DNA of 29,984 nt, from IMG/VR virus record IMGVR_UViG_3300042319_000838, positions 1 through 29,984 of that record; one strand, 5' to 3'. This DNA is from a virus. The notes below the pieces were generated by a model. The model was not told the origin of the DNA. It ran no database searches and worked only from the letters and a program-made list of their open reading frames with translations. The position numbers and the translations under genes were made by a program. Of the stretch, positions 19,408 to 29,068 are shown one piece after another; the stretch's first letter is position 1, and each line of letters starts with the position of its first letter.

Positions 19408-20220
19408 TTAAAATTGTGTTACGCCTTCGCTTCGGTTTTCAAGTTTCTTAAGCCGCTCGGCACTCGCCTTGGCTGCGGCTATGGTTGCTGGGTCAAGCCA
19501 AGGCTTACCAGCTGGCAGGCTTGTTGATGTGCCTTTGCTTTGCTTATCTTTTCGGCCGTATAGCTGTGCCCAACCTTTGTCGGCTGCGGCCATTATCGCT
19601 GCATACATTTCGCTTTTGTTATGCCCTTGTATTTCGGCCTTTGAAATTTGCATGGACTTTTCGGTAATTACCTTTTTCTTTTGAAGCCATGTTTTCGTTA
19701 CGCTACGCAAGTCGGCATCGGTTTTGAATTCGCCCAGTAAGTCATCAATAAAGTTTTCACGTGTGTACACACTCTCTTTATTACCTTCTTTAATTGTTTC
19801 TTTATTACCTTCTTTATTATATATGCCCTGTGATGTGCCCTGTGATGTGCCCTGTGATGTGCCCTGTGTTATGCCCTTTGATGTGCCCTTTGTTTGCCCT
19901 TTGGCTATTTCTAAACCTTGGTAACTGCCCCAATTCACAAGGGTTACAAGCGAAAATTTACCGTGCCCTTTCCAAACGATTTCGCCGCTTTCTTGTAGCA
20001 CGTCTATTGCCCTTCTAACTTGCTTCTTTGTAAGCCCTGATTGGTCGGCAAATCTTTCATAACTGGTAACAAATTGCCCAGCCTGAATGGTAAGTTTGCC
20101 AAACTTTGACTGCATAAAATTTGCCGAAAGTAGACAATGAATAAAGGCAGATTTTACGGGCAAATCATGATACCATGCCCAATCTTTTATTTTTCTGTGA
20201 AGCTGAATGTATCCGCACAT
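19408..20220 (-). CDS. Winged-helix replication initiator-like protein
   Basis: 270 residues from ATG 20220 (MCGYIQLHRKIKDWAWYHDL); a longer frame upstream lacks any conserved sequence and crosses an attenuator-like hairpin. Residues 20-100 are a replisome-organiser winged helix (SYERFADQSGLTKKQVRRAI, then GEIVWKGHGKFSLVTLVNWG). Residues 108-150 are a low-complexity linker of QGTS and KEGNKE repeats. The C-terminal 110 residues are charged and helical with VTKTWLQKKKVI. It probably binds the phage origin, which in such phages often lies inside the gene itself, and hands over to the helicase loader downstream. Confidence 0.78.
   Translation of the reverse strand: MCGYIQLHRKIKDWAWYHDLPVKSAFIHCLLSANFMQSKFGKLTIQAGQFVTSYERFADQSGLTKKQVRRAIDVLQESGEIVWKGHGKFSLVTLVNWGSYQGLEIAKGQTKGTSKGITQGTSQGTSQGTSQGIYNKEGNKETIKEGNKESVYTRENFIDDLLGEFKTDADLRSVTKTWLQKKKVITEKSMQISKAEIQGHNKSEMYAAIMAAADKGWAQLYGRKDKQSKGTSTSLPAGKPWLDPATIAAAKASAERLKKLENRSEGVTQF
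19775..19815. repeat. 24-bp period repeat coding for KEGNKE
   Basis: The 17-mer ctttattaccttcttta occurs at 19775-19791 and 19799-19815. It encodes the NKEGNKE and IKEGNKE linker repeats of the initiator. Confidence 0.8.
19823..19890. repeat. 12-bp tandem repeat (QGTS linker), possible origin
   Basis: About four near-exact copies of gatgtgccctgt followed by degenerate copies, encoding QGTS/KGTS. In-gene iterons are typical of phage origins inside initiator genes, but the repeat may equally be a simple protein linker. Confidence 0.6.
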
Positions 20221-21595: not shown

Positions 21596-21826
21596 TTAAA
21601 TGTTAGTAGGCTGCGACCAGTCAATGCGGTAGATTGCGTTCTTGTGTTCTACTACCTCGAAGCCGTTTATTTTTAGCCTTTGAATGTCTTCATTGGCAAT
21701 CGGGCCTTTTACCCAGCAGTACATTTCGCCTTGCTTAGCCTTGTTAATGCAGGCGGCTTCGATTTCGGCCATTAAAATTCTTGGCTTGATGTTTGCCAAG
21801 TTGTGAAGGTGGTTTGCGTAAATCAT
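21596..21826 (-). CDS. Small hypothetical phage protein, first gene of the 21.9-kb operon
   Basis: 76 residues, MIYANHLHNLANIKPRILMA. Contains IEAACINKAKQGEMYCWVKG and a Trp-containing C-terminus. No known domain. It is the first gene after one of two near-identical promoter modules, followed by the 172-residue and HNH genes. Function unknown. Confidence 0.6.
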   Translation of the reverse strand: MIYANHLHNLANIKPRILMAEIEAACINKAKQGEMYCWVKGPIANEDIQRLKINGFEVVEHKNAIYRIDWSQPTNI

Positions 21827-21848
21827 GGTTTTGTGTATTAGTGTACTG

Positions 21849-21902
21849 CAATAGTAAAAAGAATATCAATACGAAAATTTGCTTTAACACTTTTTAACAC
21901 TT
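21849..21902 (-). promoter_or_regulatory. Promoter module P2 with 10-bp tandem operator
   Basis: Minus strand: AAGTGTTAAAAAGTGTTAA (21902-21884, two AAGTGTTAA units 10 bp apart), then TTTCGTATTG (21876-21867), then TTACTATTG (21857-21849). The same three elements recur at 25466-25520 with equal spacing between the last two. TACTATTG is one change from TAnnTTTG. The gene starts 23 bp downstream. The tandem units, one helical turn apart, look like an activator or repressor site. Confidence 0.65.
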
Positions 21903-21920
21903 GGCGGCATTTGGCGGCAT

Positions 21921-21948
21921 AAAAAAAGCCCAACATCGCTGCTGGGCC
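21921..21948 (-). terminator. Rho-independent terminator after ssb
   Basis: GGCCCA...TGGGCT hairpin on the minus strand followed by TTTTTTT. It ends the ssb operon and is followed immediately by promoter module P2. Confidence 0.8.
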
Positions 21949-21971
21949 TCCCTTAACACTAACACACTATC

Positions 21972-22334
21972 TTAGAAAGGCAAGTCTTCGGTTTCTGCGA
22001 CTTGTGGCAAATGGTTCCCGCCTGATTCGGTTCTCGTGCCGCCAAGCAGTTCAACTTGGTTAACCAGCACCTTGATGTCTGTGCCGATTTTATCGTTGCC
22101 CTCTTTGTCTTTGTAAACGTCAAGAACTGGGCGGCCACTAATGTACACCTGAGTGCCTTTGCTCAAGAACTTGGCAACCCCAGCAGGCTGGTTGTTCTTG
22201 CCGAACAGGGCACAGCGAAACCATTGCGTTTCTTCGCCCTTGCCGACCGCTACCGAAAAGGTTGCAATGTCTTTGTTCTTGCCGACTAACTCGGCATCTT
22301 TGCCAATACGGCCAATCAATTGAATTTGTAACAT
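21972..22334 (-). CDS. ssb: Single-stranded DNA-binding protein
   Basis: 120 residues with a single OB fold: MLQIQLIGRIGKDAEL, then FSVAVGKGEETQWFRCALFG and VYISGRPVLDVYKDKEGN. The C-terminal tail ends ETEDLPF, the acidic tip that binds partner proteins in bacterial SSBs. It covers ssDNA during replication and recombination and would work with the ERF protein and exonuclease encoded upstream. It is shorter than typical bacterial SSB because the linker is short. Followed by a strong terminator. Confidence 0.95.
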   Translation of the reverse strand: MLQIQLIGRIGKDAELVGKNKDIATFSVAVGKGEETQWFRCALFGKNNQPAGVAKFLSKGTQVYISGRPVLDVYKDKEGNDKIGTDIKVLVNQVELLGGTRTESGGNHLPQVAETEDLPF

Positions 22335-22352
22335 GGTTAAATGGTTAAATGG

Positions 22353-22360
22353 TTATGGGT
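22353..22360 (-). promoter_or_regulatory. TACCTTTA candidate -7 element before ssb
   Basis: TACCTTTA on the minus strand, 18 bp before the ssb ATG, one base from TAnnTTTG and the same octamer as at 18557-18564. Weak evidence on its own. Confidence 0.25.
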
Positions 22361-22369
22361 TAAAGGTAC

Positions 22370-22675
22370 TTATTTTTTCTTTTGCTTGCGTTCGGTGATC
22401 AACTTTTCCACGATATACGTGCTGATGTCGGCCCCTGTCATGCCGCACCAAGATATCAGGTGTTTCAAATCAGCATATCGGTTGGCACAATTCCCGATGG
22501 GCAGTTCTTTGGGTTCATCTCCTTCCTTAATTGCAAGGCTAATGGTGGCGACGACCCCCGTAGTTGATGCCCGAATAATAAGCGGTGCCCCAAGGTAAAT
22601 TGGTTTAATGAGCAGCCCCCAGTTCACACCGTTCAGGTGCTGAAAGCCAAGTTTTTCTAATTGTGTTTTTGTCAT
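22370..22675 (-). CDS. Hypothetical phage protein
   Basis: 101 residues from ATG 22675 (MTKTQLEKLGFQHLNGVNWG). C-terminal basic tail KLITERKQKKK. Contains a strand-rich centre (ASTTGVVATISLAIKEGDEP). No motif recognised. It lies between the DnaA-like gene and ssb in the replication region. Confidence 0.55.
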   Translation of the reverse strand: MTKTQLEKLGFQHLNGVNWGLLIKPIYLGAPLIIRASTTGVVATISLAIKEGDEPKELPIGNCANRYADLKHLISWCGMTGADISTYIVEKLITERKQKKK

Positions 22676-22686
22676 GGTGTTTGTTG

Positions 22687-23181
22687 TTAATTGTGAAAGA
22701 AAATGCTGCAAGGTATTTCGTACAAGGTAGGCTGATTTTCGTTCAAATCCAACTCAATCGATTCCAACTCAATCAATACCATACGCAGATGCTCAGCCAG
22801 TTGAAGGCATTTGCTATAATACTCCTTGTCTCCGATTTTTGTATCGTTTACAACTTTTATGCTGTGGCTAACGCTGGCATGGTCGCAGTTAAGCAAAGCC
22901 CCAATTTTCTCCATTTTCATTCCAGTAACCACCCTGAGAGCAAACCGAAAAGCGTGTTTACAATTTATTTGTTCTGTAAACCTTCGCTTTGTAAGTGCGG
23001 TTTCAATCGGTACGCCCCAATAAGCGGCCATCTCCTTTAGCACCGTTTCTTCGTATCCGGGCTTAACGGGATATTTTACATTAGCCACAATTCTTTTAGA
23101 TAAAATTCGGTCAATGTATGCCTTGACTTCTAATAAATTAACGTCCTTGCGGTTTAAATAGCGTTTAAAATGTCGTGTCAT
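22687..23181 (-). CDS. Stand-alone DnaA domain IV-like DNA-binding protein
   Basis: 164 residues. Residues 47-113 match the C-terminal DNA-binding domain of DnaA: VLKEMAAYWGVPIETALTKR, then HAFRFALRVVTGMKMEKIGA, and NCDHASVSHSIKVV, where DHASVSHS stands for the DnaA signature DHTTVLHA. There is no AAA+ ATPase domain. It probably recognises a DnaA-box-like sequence, for replication or transcription control. It overlaps the exonuclease gene by 4 bp. Related stand-alone domains are known in phages, but the function is not certain. Confidence 0.8.
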   Translation of the reverse strand: MTRHFKRYLNRKDVNLLEVKAYIDRILSKRIVANVKYPVKPGYEETVLKEMAAYWGVPIETALTKRRFTEQINCKHAFRFALRVVTGMKMEKIGALLNCDHASVSHSIKVVNDTKIGDKEYYSKCLQLAEHLRMVLIELESIELDLNENQPTLYEIPCSIFFHN

Positions 23182-23786
23182 TTCAGTTTTGTTAATAGTT
23201 CAACTTCAATAATGTTTCGGCACATTTGTACCCTGTCGTAAATGGCCTCGATTAGCACATCGTCCCGCTTTATTTCGTAGGCCTTGATGCGGTATTTCGC
23301 TGGCACGTGATCATAGCTTTGCACCTCGCCGCATATTTCTTCAGGGGTTGGCATAAGCACGTAAACCAATTGGGCGTTTTTAAGCCCCGTTAAGGCCATA
23401 TAACCTTGCAACTGGTACACATACCCCATCGGCGGTTTAGAATCCCACAAAGGGAAGGTAAAAGCGTCCCAGCTACTCTTAATGTCCACGATGCTTGTGC
23501 CCTCAACAATGTCGGGCGTGCCAGTTAGCCAATCATTTTCAAATAACCGCTCGTTCTTTTCGGGCATGAACCAGCCAAGGTGGGCCCCAGCGAATTCGAT
23601 GGCGGCATCTTCAACCGCTCGGCCCTTCGCCATCGGCTTTGTGTCCAGTTGGCGGCGTACTCCGAAAAGTTGCTCAACAACCCAATCTTGAAGGTAGCCG
23701 TAGCAAGTTGCCCCGGCCGTATCCTTCCCCCTGCCATTGGCCATAATTTGACCAATGGCAGAACAGCGTGCTTTAAACTCCTTCAT
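23178..23786 (-). CDS. PD-(D/E)XK exonuclease (YqaJ/lambda-type)
   Basis: 202 residues from ATG 23786 (MKEFKARCSAIGQIMANGRG); a longer frame would start with TTG and overlap the ERF gene heavily. Motifs: E59 in GRAVEDAAIEF, TGTPDIVEG with D92, IVDIKSSW with D101 and K103, and the Cas4/YqaJ-type VYQLQGYMAL. These form the PD-(D/E)XK active site of a dsDNA exonuclease, which would resect ends for the single-strand annealing protein encoded directly upstream. The pair constitutes a Red/RecET-like recombination module. Confidence 0.9.
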   Translation of the reverse strand: MKEFKARCSAIGQIMANGRGKDTAGATCYGYLQDWVVEQLFGVRRQLDTKPMAKGRAVEDAAIEFAGAHLGWFMPEKNERLFENDWLTGTPDIVEGTSIVDIKSSWDAFTFPLWDSKPPMGYVYQLQGYMALTGLKNAQLVYVLMPTPEEICGEVQSYDHVPAKYRIKAYEIKRDDVLIEAIYDRVQMCRNIIEVELLTKLK

Positions 23787-24420
23787 TGCCGATTTGTTTT
23801 GAATAGATCGCAATTGCCTTTTCAATCGTTGCTTGGTTGTTTGCCCACGCCTTTACGTTGATGCACTCGCCATCGTTGAAAGGGTTTGCCTTGGCCCGGC
23901 TAACCTCAGGCAGTTGTTCGGAAATGTCGAACAACTGATTGCAAAGGTCTTGCATCTTGGTAGGTAGGCTCAAAAATGCGATAGGCTGCTGCACCTTGGC
24001 GGCAACTGAATACGTGTCTTTGTCGGCGTCCTTTAACTCCTCGGTAGGTATAAGTAGCATTTGCATTAGTGCGTACTTTAAAGCTGCTGACATAGCCTTG
24101 TTGGTTGACTTATCGCCGCTGTCCATGGCCTCGCCCTCAACGATTGAAAACACGCTGCTGCCGTCTATTGCGTAGAACGTGAACTTTACCCGAAGAATGG
24201 TGTAAAGTAGCAAGCCGCCTTTGGCCGTTGTGCGTTCTTCCCGGTTGTTGCTGACCACGTCGCTTGTAATGAATACGCCGTTGCGGGCGAATAGCGGGTG
24301 AATAGCGTTGTAAAGGTCATCAATGCCTCTAAAGTTGTACCCCTGCTGGGCGTTTTTGTTGTTCTTGCCAATTGCCGAAACTTCGGTCATGATGTTGGCG
24401 ATGCTTTGATAGATTTGCAT
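23773..24420 (-). CDS. erf: ERF-family single-strand annealing protein
   Basis: 215 residues. N-terminal MQIYQSIANIMTEVSAIGKN, then YNFRGIDDLYNAIHPLFARN and the ERF signature GEAMDSGDKSTNKAMSAALK at 96-115 followed by YALMQMLLIPTEE. This family anneals complementary single strands in phage recombination and genome circularisation. The C-terminus is variable, as expected. It is followed by the exonuclease gene with a 14-bp overlap, forming a two-component recombinase. Confidence 0.95.
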   Translation of the reverse strand: MQIYQSIANIMTEVSAIGKNNKNAQQGYNFRGIDDLYNAIHPLFARNGVFITSDVVSNNREERTTAKGGLLLYTILRVKFTFYAIDGSSVFSIVEGEAMDSGDKSTNKAMSAALKYALMQMLLIPTEELKDADKDTYSVAAKVQQPIAFLSLPTKMQDLCNQLFDISEQLPEVSRAKANPFNDGECINVKAWANNQATIEKAIAIYSKQIGNEGV

Positions 24421-24431
24421 TGTGTTTGGTT

Positions 24432-24620
24432 TTATTGGTTATTAAAGTTTACAAGGTTTTCAACGATTTTGACTGCTTGCCGCATTATGGTTTCTTGGGG
24501 CAATATGCCACCAACCCAGCGAAGCGATGCGGCAATGAATGGTTTGCCCTTTTCGGGCTTTGCAATTATTTGGATTTTGCCGCCGCCAATTGATGGGGTT
24601 TCTCGGATTTCGTACTTCAT
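24432..24620 (-). CDS. Small hypothetical protein
   Basis: 62 residues, MKYEIRETPSIGGGKIQIIA. A short beta-strand start and a helical C-terminus (MRQAVKIVENLVNF). Its start overlaps the lysozyme stop by 4 bp; the ERF gene follows after 11 bp. No family recognised. Confidence 0.5.
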   Translation of the reverse strand: MKYEIRETPSIGGGKIQIIAKPEKGKPFIAASLRWVGGILPQETIMRQAVKIVENLVNFNNQ

Positions 24621-24955
24621 CTTGGTTTGTTTGTTTGTAGTTGTTGTTTTACTTTTTTCCAGTATTTAAGGGTAGATGCCTTTTTGTGTCCGTTCGGCCC
24701 GCCGTTCCATTTTCGTGCAATAACCTCGGCGTTTGCGTAGCGGTTGGTAAGTACCCACATATCGAATGCTTTCATTGATTTGCCGCAGTTCCACCTATCA
24801 TCTAAGGTAAACGGTATGCCGATGCGGTTGAACTCGGCAACCATTATCGGGCGAATCTGCAGGCAGCCGCAAGCGTCTTCACGTTTGTTGTATGCAAGGT
24901 CATTGCCGCCGCTTTCAATCATGATAATAGCGGCTAAAAGTTTGATAAGAATCAT
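24617..24955 (-). CDS. Small lysozyme / lytic transglycosylase-like protein
   Basis: 112 residues with a goose-lysozyme/SLT-type core: IIMIESGGNDLAYN carrying the catalytic Glu at residue 14, GCLQIRPIMVAEFNRIG (the conserved LMQI-type strand) and IARKWNGGPNG. No separate signal peptide: the N-terminal hydrophobic residues belong to the catalytic helix. It would cleave the glycan chains of peptidoglycan after holin release. It lies two small genes after the holin, within the early region, while the amidase is 14 kb downstream. Confidence 0.8.
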   Translation of the reverse strand: MILIKLLAAIIMIESGGNDLAYNKREDACGCLQIRPIMVAEFNRIGIPFTLDDRWNCGKSMKAFDMWVLTNRYANAEVIARKWNGGPNGHKKASTLKYWKKVKQQLQTNKPR

Positions 24956-25176
24956 TGGTTTAGTATTTGGCAGTTTAGTAGAATCGGGTCGGCATTGCCT
25001 GTGTTGTATTTAGCCCTGATGTGGTTTTTGGCCCATATCATTAAAAGCCAGTCGGTCATTTCGGAATCGGCTTCGTAATGTTTCAGGCGGTTGATTTTTT
25101 GTTCATCAAGCCAAATGTTTAGCTTGCGAATGTGGGAGGAGCGGTCGGGCAAGGCCCATTGAATTGCAATTTGCAT
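24952..25176 (-). CDS. Small hypothetical protein
   Basis: 74 residues, MQIAIQWALPDRSSHIRKLN. Basic and helical, with IWLDEQKINRLKHY and WLLMIWAKNHIRAKY. No motif. Overlaps the lysozyme start by 4 bp, so both are cotranslated. Function unknown. Confidence 0.5.
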   Translation of the reverse strand: MQIAIQWALPDRSSHIRKLNIWLDEQKINRLKHYEADSEMTDWLLMIWAKNHIRAKYNTGNADPILLNCQILNQ

Positions 25177-25190
25177 AGCGTTTTGAATTA

Positions 25191-25212
25191 GCCCCCCGAT
25201 TTCTCAGGGGGC
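25191..25212. terminator. Strong hairpin, terminator for plus-strand reading
   Basis: A 9-bp stem with a 4-base loop (minus strand GAAA). On the plus strand it is followed by ggttttgtttt, so it would stop antisense transcription; on the minus strand no T tract follows. The core is shared with the hairpin at 29047-29068. Confidence 0.6.
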
Positions 25213-25221
25213 GGTTTTGTT

Positions 25222-25431
25222 TTATTTAAAGGTGATTACTGATTCTGCAATTGCTGTGTTGCTTGCAATTTGCTGTTTGCCTATTGTGCTAATGTAGTCA
25301 ATGGCGTAAACTTGTCCGCTTATAATGTATGCCTTAGTAATTTCGGCTACATTCTTGTATTGCTTGTTGCAATGCGATAGTAAAGCGTTGTAGGCTTTTC
25401 CGTTTTTCGAGAAGTTTTTTGAAGTTGTCAT
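25222..25431 (-). CDS. Small hypothetical protein, first gene of the 25.5-kb operon
   Basis: 69 residues from ATG 25431 (MTTSKNFSKNGKAYNALLSH); a longer frame upstream would start in the promoter region. Basic N-terminus and a helical body (KAYNALLSHCNKQYKNVAEI). No domain recognised. First gene after promoter module P1, so presumably among the first expressed. A strong hairpin follows its stop. Confidence 0.6.
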   Translation of the reverse strand: MTTSKNFSKNGKAYNALLSHCNKQYKNVAEITKAYIISGQVYAIDYISTIGKQQIASNTAIAESVITFK

Positions 25432-25465
25432 GGTGTGTGTTTTTGTTTGTGTTAATTGAACAGCA

Positions 25466-25520
25466 CAATAGTAAACTTTTAAACAATACGAAACCCCAGC
25501 GTTAACACTTTTTAACACTT
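25466..25520 (-). promoter_or_regulatory. Promoter module P1 with 10-bp tandem operator
   Basis: Minus strand: AAGTGTTAAAAAGTGTTAA (25520-25502), TTTCGTATTG (25493-25484) and TTACTATTG (25474-25466), the same set as module P2 at 21849-21902. Spacing between the last two elements is identical; the gap after the tandem repeat differs by one base. The ATG is 34 bp downstream. Confidence 0.65.
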
Positions 25521-25524
25521 GGCA

Positions 25525-25555
25525 CAAAAAGAAAAGCCCCAACTTTCGTCAGGGC
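25525..25555 (-). terminator. Rho-independent terminator after the holin
   Basis: Minus strand GCCCTGAC-GAAA-GTTGGGGC (8-bp stem with G-U pairs and GAAA loop, 25555-25536) followed by TTTTCTTTTT. It lies 22 bp beyond the DNA upstream of the holin start as read rightward, between promoter module P1 and the holin gene, so it ends the head operon. Confidence 0.8.
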
Positions 25556-25577
25556 AATTCAGCAAACAACGGGTTAA

Positions 25578-28369: not shown

Positions 28370-28654
28370 ATGAGCGAAGAAAATTACCAAAGTAGCCCCA
28401 TTATTTTGCGGGATATTGAATACAAAAGACGCACGGTTGCGATTTCCGAACCCATTACGAACTACCAATGTGCCCCACGTGCCCATCATAACTCTATTAA
28501 AGCCCAATACAGCAGCCGAATGTACTTTGCTGTCCTGATGTACCGTGAACTGCTTAAAGGTTCAGTTAATCGCTTTGAAGCGGCAACCGAAGCGGCCACG
28601 GTGCATGATGTGAATTACGATAAAATTATGCGGATTGCCCGAAAGGACATTTAA
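28370..28654 (+). CDS. Only plus-strand gene: 94-residue hypothetical protein
   Basis: 94 residues from ATG 28370 (MSEENYQSSPIILRDIEYKR); a longer frame would start before the promoter. The C-terminal half is helical and could form a small helix-turn-helix (YFAVLMYRELLKGSVNRFEA, AATVHDVNYDKIMRIAR). It is transcribed away from the capsid gene in a 1-kb stretch between capsid and scaffold genes, with its own promoter and a terminator at 28680-28710. Its opposite orientation and separate signals suggest an independently expressed, possibly regulatory, moron gene. No family recognised. Confidence 0.65.
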   Translation: MSEENYQSSPIILRDIEYKRRTVAISEPITNYQCAPRAHHNSIKAQYSSRMYFAVLMYRELLKGSVNRFEAATEAATVHDVNYDKIMRIARKDI

Positions 28655-29011: not shown

Positions 29012-29040
29012 ACCCCAAACATACAAACTATTTCAATAAC

Positions 29041-29068
29041 AAAAAAAGCCCCCGATTTCTCAGGGGCT
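29041..29068 (-). terminator. Terminator after the scaffold gene
   Basis: Minus strand AGCCCC-TGA-GAAA-TCG-GGGGCT hairpin followed by TTTTTTT. The core matches the hairpin at 25191-25212. It separates the scaffold gene from the cassette at 28.7-29.0 kb. Confidence 0.85.

Follow-up and report, generated by a model that had tools for sequence, protein, structure and literature searches.

Two intergenic gaps in the IMG/VR virus record IMGVR_UViG_3300042319_000838, a 29,984-base sequence that was analysed whole and is referred to here as the window, each contain an intrinsic terminator followed by the same paired sequence, AAGTGTTAAAAAGTGTTAA, and a promoter. The question raised by this locus is what reads the tandem element, and whether it is a peculiarity of one phage. 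The preliminary description had proposed that the two modules, which positions 21849-25520 span, form a shared transcription signal in which helical spacing matters, and this was borne out, the phase of the tandem being kept across 31 linkers in relatives and in dozens of unrelated phages. The paired element is not private to this phage and suggests that strong promoters in Bacteroidota are marked in a manner not described before.

Both gaps are read on the - strand, which holds nearly all genes of the window, and they measure 145 bp (21827-21971, module 1) and 146 bp (25432-25577, module 2). The order within each is terminator, GCC, AAGTGTTAAAAAGTGTTAA, a spacer of 7 bp (module 1) or 8 bp (module 2), TTTCGTATTG, 9 bp and TTACTATTG; the common parts and their near-equal spacing, both described earlier, are real. 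The two 19-mers are exact copies with a repeat period of 10 bp, and the statement that their units lie one helical turn apart was correct. At up to three mismatches the window contains two tandems against 0.02 expected, and the same numbers (2 observed, 0.02 expected by chance) apply to TTTCGTATTG-N9-TTACTATTG. The position of tandem element 1 is conserved in sister phages.

The exact 19-mer was found in 65 stretches of IMG/VR, most of them from one phage genus whose terminases are 95-100% identical. A search of relatives for the same block, as had been suggested, used 22 contigs of this genus (21 of them retrieved) and the promoter core ATTG-N10-TAnn[AT]TTG alone, with no tandem required; practically all intergenic promoters that matched carried the tandem, 66 promoters in all. 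The distance that separates the end of the 19-mer from the T of the -7 box, written F or R for forward or reverse orientation, was F27 (18 promoters), F28 (7), F38 (6), F49 (5), R18 (16) or R28 (14), over 31 distinct linkers, the whole tandem being inverted in the R promoters. The only distance outside these values was a chance match with four mismatches (F60 in G004, outside the module), which was dropped. Distance and orientation vary among the promoters of the genus, and helical phase is constant. Contigs with a 63%-identical terminase had tandems at F37, F38 and R18, and exact 19-mers in contigs unrelated to the family included L059 at F27 and L020 at R18, both of which fit perfectly; the other unrelated exact matches, together with those at N=33 and N=42, were mostly due to chance, several lying inside genes, and were discarded. 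An out-of-phase R12 reading at L167/L170 was set aside because the opposite side offers an F38 in keeping with the main pattern. None of the named phage records had the module, and terminase relatives among named phages were at most 27% identical, so there is no known isolate of the genus here; a search for the host by way of prophages found no prophage.

The earlier claim that the -7 box differs from the host consensus held only in part. The box TACTATTG of the window has one mismatch to TAnnTTTG, and sister phages at matching promoters read TAGGTTTG, TAATATTG or TACTATTG. As a separate observation, many -7 boxes of genus promoters with TAGGTTTG (e.g. in G006, G010 and G014) have GG at -10/-9, a dinucleotide that hardly occurs in the TAHHTTTG promoters of Flavobacterium johnsoniae. 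Promoter 1 has no TTTG at -33, where it would be expected some 19-20 bp ahead of the -7 box, and promoter 2 reads GGGG or GGGT there; both have TTTCGTATTG instead. Likely counterparts in sister phages of a third promoter of the window keep degenerate reverse tandems, and promoter 3 itself has lost its tandem.

Outside the genus, IMG/VR was scanned with relaxed patterns, the counts covering the matches listed. The forward pattern (TGTTAA-WDDR-TGTTAA, 14-44 bases, TAHHTTTG) gave at least 99 nonredundant sites, and 82 of the 99 listed lay at 27-29 or 37-39 bp, with peaks at 27 (37 sites), 28 (13), 29 (4), 37 (11), 38 (11) and 39 (6) and none of the listed matches at 30-33 or 40-41. After grouping of the listed sites by linker similarity, 49/64 clusters were in phase against 6/31 expected (binomial p ~8e-23). 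The same test with the element reversed (core TTAACA) gave at least 127 sites, 110 of the 127 listed at 20-21 or 30-32 bp, with peaks at 20 (3), 21 (20), 30 (2), 31 (48) and 32 (37); 64 of the 81 listed linker clusters were in phase (p ~8e-31). When the hexamers are taken as parts of 9-mers (AAGTGTTAA, TTAACACTT), the positions occupied by forward and by inverted sites agree to within about one base. The records behind the listed matches ranged from a few kilobases up to 356 kb, and the in-phase loci formed at least 13 groups, one of them large, that had no common open reading frame at E 1e-10 in the flanks compared. Copies are dispersed, one per operon promoter. A single record of 139,610 bp, IMGVR_UViG_3300033512_000218, had 24 copies, of which 23 have the 32-bp distance, and no match to the backward-read control pattern; L371 and related loci in this record have TTAACATTTATTAACA-N8-[T]TTTG-N20-TATCTTTG-like promoters, which make a natural promoter series.

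Seven loci in two groups by sequence (L194:425, L213:2088(-), L219, L221, L223, L249 and L281) have a single tandem that lies between two divergent promoters and is in phase with the -7 box of each, as F27/R21 or F38/R31. Hosts of the viral contigs were inferred from promoter class, and in-phase pairs were also found in two isolated phages, Polaribacter P12002L (R 21/32 and 20/31) and Riemerella RAP44 (R 31/41 and F 38/48). The consensus of the F28, R31 and R32 sites, drawn from many unrelated phages, contains TTTG at a spacer of 19-20 bp from TAnnTTTG, which is the published -33 box, and the tandem is therefore found immediately ahead of a canonical promoter of Bacteroidota. There is a sequence preference as well: TTAACA was enriched in phase 8.2-fold and other TTAANN words no more than 1.9-fold (TTAAAA 0.9, TTAATA 1.2), in single-site tests that depend in part on the searched tandems, since divergent promoters share them.

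This promoter class, the sigma-ABfr promoter with TTTG at -33 and TAnnTTTG at -7, has nothing upstream of -33 in its published consensus (PMC6847099, PMC7366714). The tandem sits upstream of such promoters in many phages, with TTTG at the 19-20 bp spacer and TAHHTTTG downstream; promoters 1 and 2 of the window differ from the class in having no -33 TTTG. F. johnsoniae promoters were described with a -7 TAHHTTTG, an unclear -33 and AT-rich motifs at -18 and -28, from the 50 nt upstream of starts (PMC6847099), and the motif search in Bacteroides thetaiotaomicron covered -50 to +1 (PMC7366714). With the T of TAnnTTTG at -12 (PMC6847099) an F27 tandem covers -58 to -40, and both of these genome-wide searches, which took only 50 nt upstream, would truncate or overlook an element at -60 to -40. 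No description of the paired element was found in the literature searched, which was mostly without subscription papers.

The UP element of E. coli rRNA and phage early promoters consists of a pair of subsites, separated by one turn and located at about -59 to -38, lies on the polymerase face and can be moved by whole turns. The tandem is like it in position (-58 to -40 at F27), in having two subsites about one helical turn apart with a 10-bp period, and in keeping its helical face while shifting by whole turns (27/28, 38 and 49, or 18 and 28, in the genus; 27-29, 37-39, 20-21 and 30-32 more broadly). The explanation that we favour, at only slightly less than an even chance, is that the tandem is a UP-like upstream promoter element for the primary RNA polymerase of Bacteroidota, tolerant of orientation and placed at about -60 to -40. 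Two subsites of 9-10 bp (core TGTTAA, or TTAACA when inverted), one helical turn apart and immediately ahead of the -33 region in a TAnnTTTG promoter, would be bound from the face of the RNA polymerase, most likely by two C-terminal domains of the alpha subunit (alpha-CTDs), and this binding would raise promoter strength. The tether of these domains is flexible, and the pair could for that reason be moved by whole turns or inverted without loss. By putting the tandem right behind terminators the phages would gain compact, strong operon starts. Position, paired one-turn subsites and tolerance of both whole-turn shifts and inversion would fit two alpha-CTDs better than a classical asymmetric activator. 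The sequences themselves establish the element, its phase, its tolerance of either orientation, its spread and its preference for certain bases. A positive action, a binder of host origin and the alpha-CTD as that binder are the presumed parts of the proposal, within which a conserved host activator might take the place of the alpha-CTD.

The tandem departs from the UP element of E. coli in tolerating either orientation and in having a binder that is only presumed. Several observations weigh against a UP-like element. The UP element of E. coli is an A/T tract, whereas TGTTAA/TTAACA contains a conserved G or C, and TTAA words made of A/T only were not enriched in phase. Host DNA might be expected to contain a general polymerase element, yet a search that found its positive control gave no match to the pair in 3.2 Mb of plasmid-type records of Bacteroidota, among them a Prevotella record of 1.77 Mb, and phased single sites were absent from 340 kb of plasmids. 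A general host promoter element was consequently not supported, and use by the host is hypothetical. The promoters of these phages are, moreover, called from their sequence alone.

A dedicated and conserved host transcription activator, acting as two monomers or as a direct-repeat dimer in the manner of PhoB-type regulators and exploited by the phages, with indirect contacts to RNA polymerase, would account for helical phasing just upstream of -33, for the sequence-specific core and for the spread over unrelated phages. We consider it unlikely, though well ahead of the explanations below, since both orientations work at one position despite the asymmetric repeat, the pair was not found in the 3.2 Mb of host-type records and no candidate protein is known. 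The regulator might instead be encoded by the phages, as the preliminary description had supposed in invoking a dedicated phage activator or repressor. In the genus the candidate activator is the DnaA domain IV-like protein, which would switch on phage operons: it occurs in 22/22 genus contigs, it retrieves 33 contigs of which all 33 also carry the tandem, it keeps the DnaA-box contact residues (R399 and H434 equivalents), and the best register of the 9-mer, AGTGTTAAA, comes within two mismatches of TGTGNAWAA. Two mismatches are nevertheless outside the limit of one for the DnaA box TTWTNCACA, and PF08299 (Bac_DnaA_C) was found in only 13/42 other records with the element and in 0/14 of those of 39-356 kb. 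Known phage-encoded DnaA domain IV proteins and DnaA boxes have a parallel in the DnaA-IV-like gene of operon 2, but most tandem phages lack the gene, and the protein was rejected as the general reader. A phmmer comparison of RAP44, P12002L and 11b with the window family gave only structural, methyltransferase or recombination-type proteins in common, and a regulator common to unrelated phages was rejected on this ground; RAP44 shares none with that family. With the element present in phages that have neither a detectable shared regulator nor a DnaA-like protein, a phage activator is improbable, and a common host factor would be the simplest reader of the tandem.

Helix-phased upstream sites are known from class I activators (CRP) and from the late promoters of P2/P4 with Ogr/Delta sites at -55, which likewise serve several promoters of one phage genome; the tandem differs in being a direct repeat and not a dyad, in spanning unrelated phages and in having no common phage activator. 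The CII site of lambda, TTGC-N6-TTGC, is a direct repeat whose period is 10 bp and which is bound from a single face, as is proposed for the tandem, but it straddles -35, whereas the tandem lies upstream of -33 at several distances. Replication iterons are repeats clustered at one origin, and the copies here are dispersed. A repressor operator that keeps phage promoters off might be read into the R18 reverse copies near the -33 region and the RAP44 copies among repressor genes; it is very improbable, as the majority of copies are found at -60 to -40 or still further upstream in whole-turn steps, where a steric block is unlikely, and one large phage has 24 of them. Intrinsic curvature from phased A-tracts, aiding the promoter without the sequence being read, would explain the 10 bp period, the TTAAAA runs and the phase dependence, but the in-phase preference for TTAACA over TTAAAA and TTAATA and the exact conservation of 19 bp in the genus make it more doubtful still, and plain curvature was rejected because other TTAA words are not enriched in phase. 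Least credible is a recent duplication in one phage with no general function: two exact 19-mers and near-identical cores suggest it, while phase holds in unrelated phages as linkers, orientation and spacing vary, and the distance histograms contradict it.

The features of the window are given in Table 1. Terminator 1, which folds with its flanks at -22.6 kcal/mol (z -2.8), ends the upstream recombination/SSB operon directly before module 1; terminator 2 folds at -16.4 kcal/mol (z -2.8).

Table 1. Predicted features of the two modules, the third promoter and selected genes in the window
Feature	Position	Strand	Remarks
Operon 1 first gene	21596..21826	-	76 aa, function unassigned
-7 box TACTATTG, promoter 1	21849..21856	-	predicted start near 21844
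TTACTATTG copies	21849-21857 and 25466-25474	-	modules 1 and 2
TTTCGTATTG of promoter 1	21867..21876	-	conserved element at about -32 to -23
Tandem upstream element 1, AAGTGTTAAAAAGTGTTAA	21884..21902	-	forward, 27 bp before -7 box, about -58 to -40
Terminator 1, intrinsic	21921..21947	-	GCCCAGCAGCGATGTTGGGC + T7; hairpin 21928-21947, T-run 21921-21927
DnaA domain IV-like protein	22687..23181	-	Bac_DnaA_C (PF08299) E 5e-7; in operon 2
Operon 2 first gene	25222..25431	-	69 aa
-7 box TACTATTG, promoter 2	25466..25473	-	predicted start near 25461
TTTCGTATTG of promoter 2	25484..25493	-	
Tandem upstream element 2, AAGTGTTAAAAAGTGTTAA	25502..25520	-	forward, 28 bp before -7 box
Terminator 2, intrinsic	25536..25555	-	hairpin with T-run TTTTCTTTTT; directly before promoter module 2
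Third promoter, same core type (ATTG-N10-TATGTTTG)	29016..29037	-	without tandem; terminator T-run abuts TTATTG
Terminator before promoter 3	29047..29068	-	

Operon 2 comprises the 69-aa gene, which had no match in PHROGs or Pfam, and genes for a transglycosylase-like protein, an ERF annealing protein, an exonuclease, the DnaA domain IV-like protein and a single-stranded DNA-binding protein (SSB). Operon 1 runs from the 76-aa gene through an HNH nuclease, a helix-turn-helix (HTH) protein and an AAA ATPase onward in the direction of the terminase genes. The idea that the modules coordinate two halves of a replication region was not supported; the operon of promoter 1 continues past the replication genes towards the packaging genes. 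Some further features of these genomes were seen. The stand-alone DnaA domain IV-like protein exists in two versions, ~45% identical, that swap among sister phages and have a similar recognition helix. Twelve sister contigs encode an opposite-strand HTH protein of 119 aa (L068:16333-16692 (-)) with a weak match to Sigma-70 region 4, which by eye looks DnaA-IV-like. The transglycosylase SLT-like gene of the window (24617-24955) lies within the recombination operon and not beside lysis or tail genes. A small conserved gene of ~94 aa (28373-28654, + strand), which runs against the direction of nearly all other genes, adjoins the capsid gene and is present in the genus. On the - strand at 19821-19892 a 12-bp tandem repeat (TGCCCTGTGATG) in a gene for a 300-aa HTH protein gives a GTSQGTSQ repeat.

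A broader proposal, held slightly more tentatively than the UP-like element itself, is that the RNA polymerase of Bacteroidota reads a sequence-specific upstream code of TGTTAA/TTAACA pairs one turn apart, in either orientation and at whole-turn distances, as a third promoter element of the phylum. With the same reserve, this code may be used by phages of tens to hundreds of kb, may let one pair serve two divergent promoters and may have been missed by 50-nt searches. The basis of promoter strength is a current question in Bacteroidota, major bacteria of gut and water whose promoter rules have so far comprised a box at -7 and a weak one at -33. A sharply defined, helix-phased third element common to many phages provides a directly testable rule. 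It is also a candidate component of tools for gene expression in Bacteroides and in Flavobacterium, and by means of it the operon starts of phages could be called from sequence.

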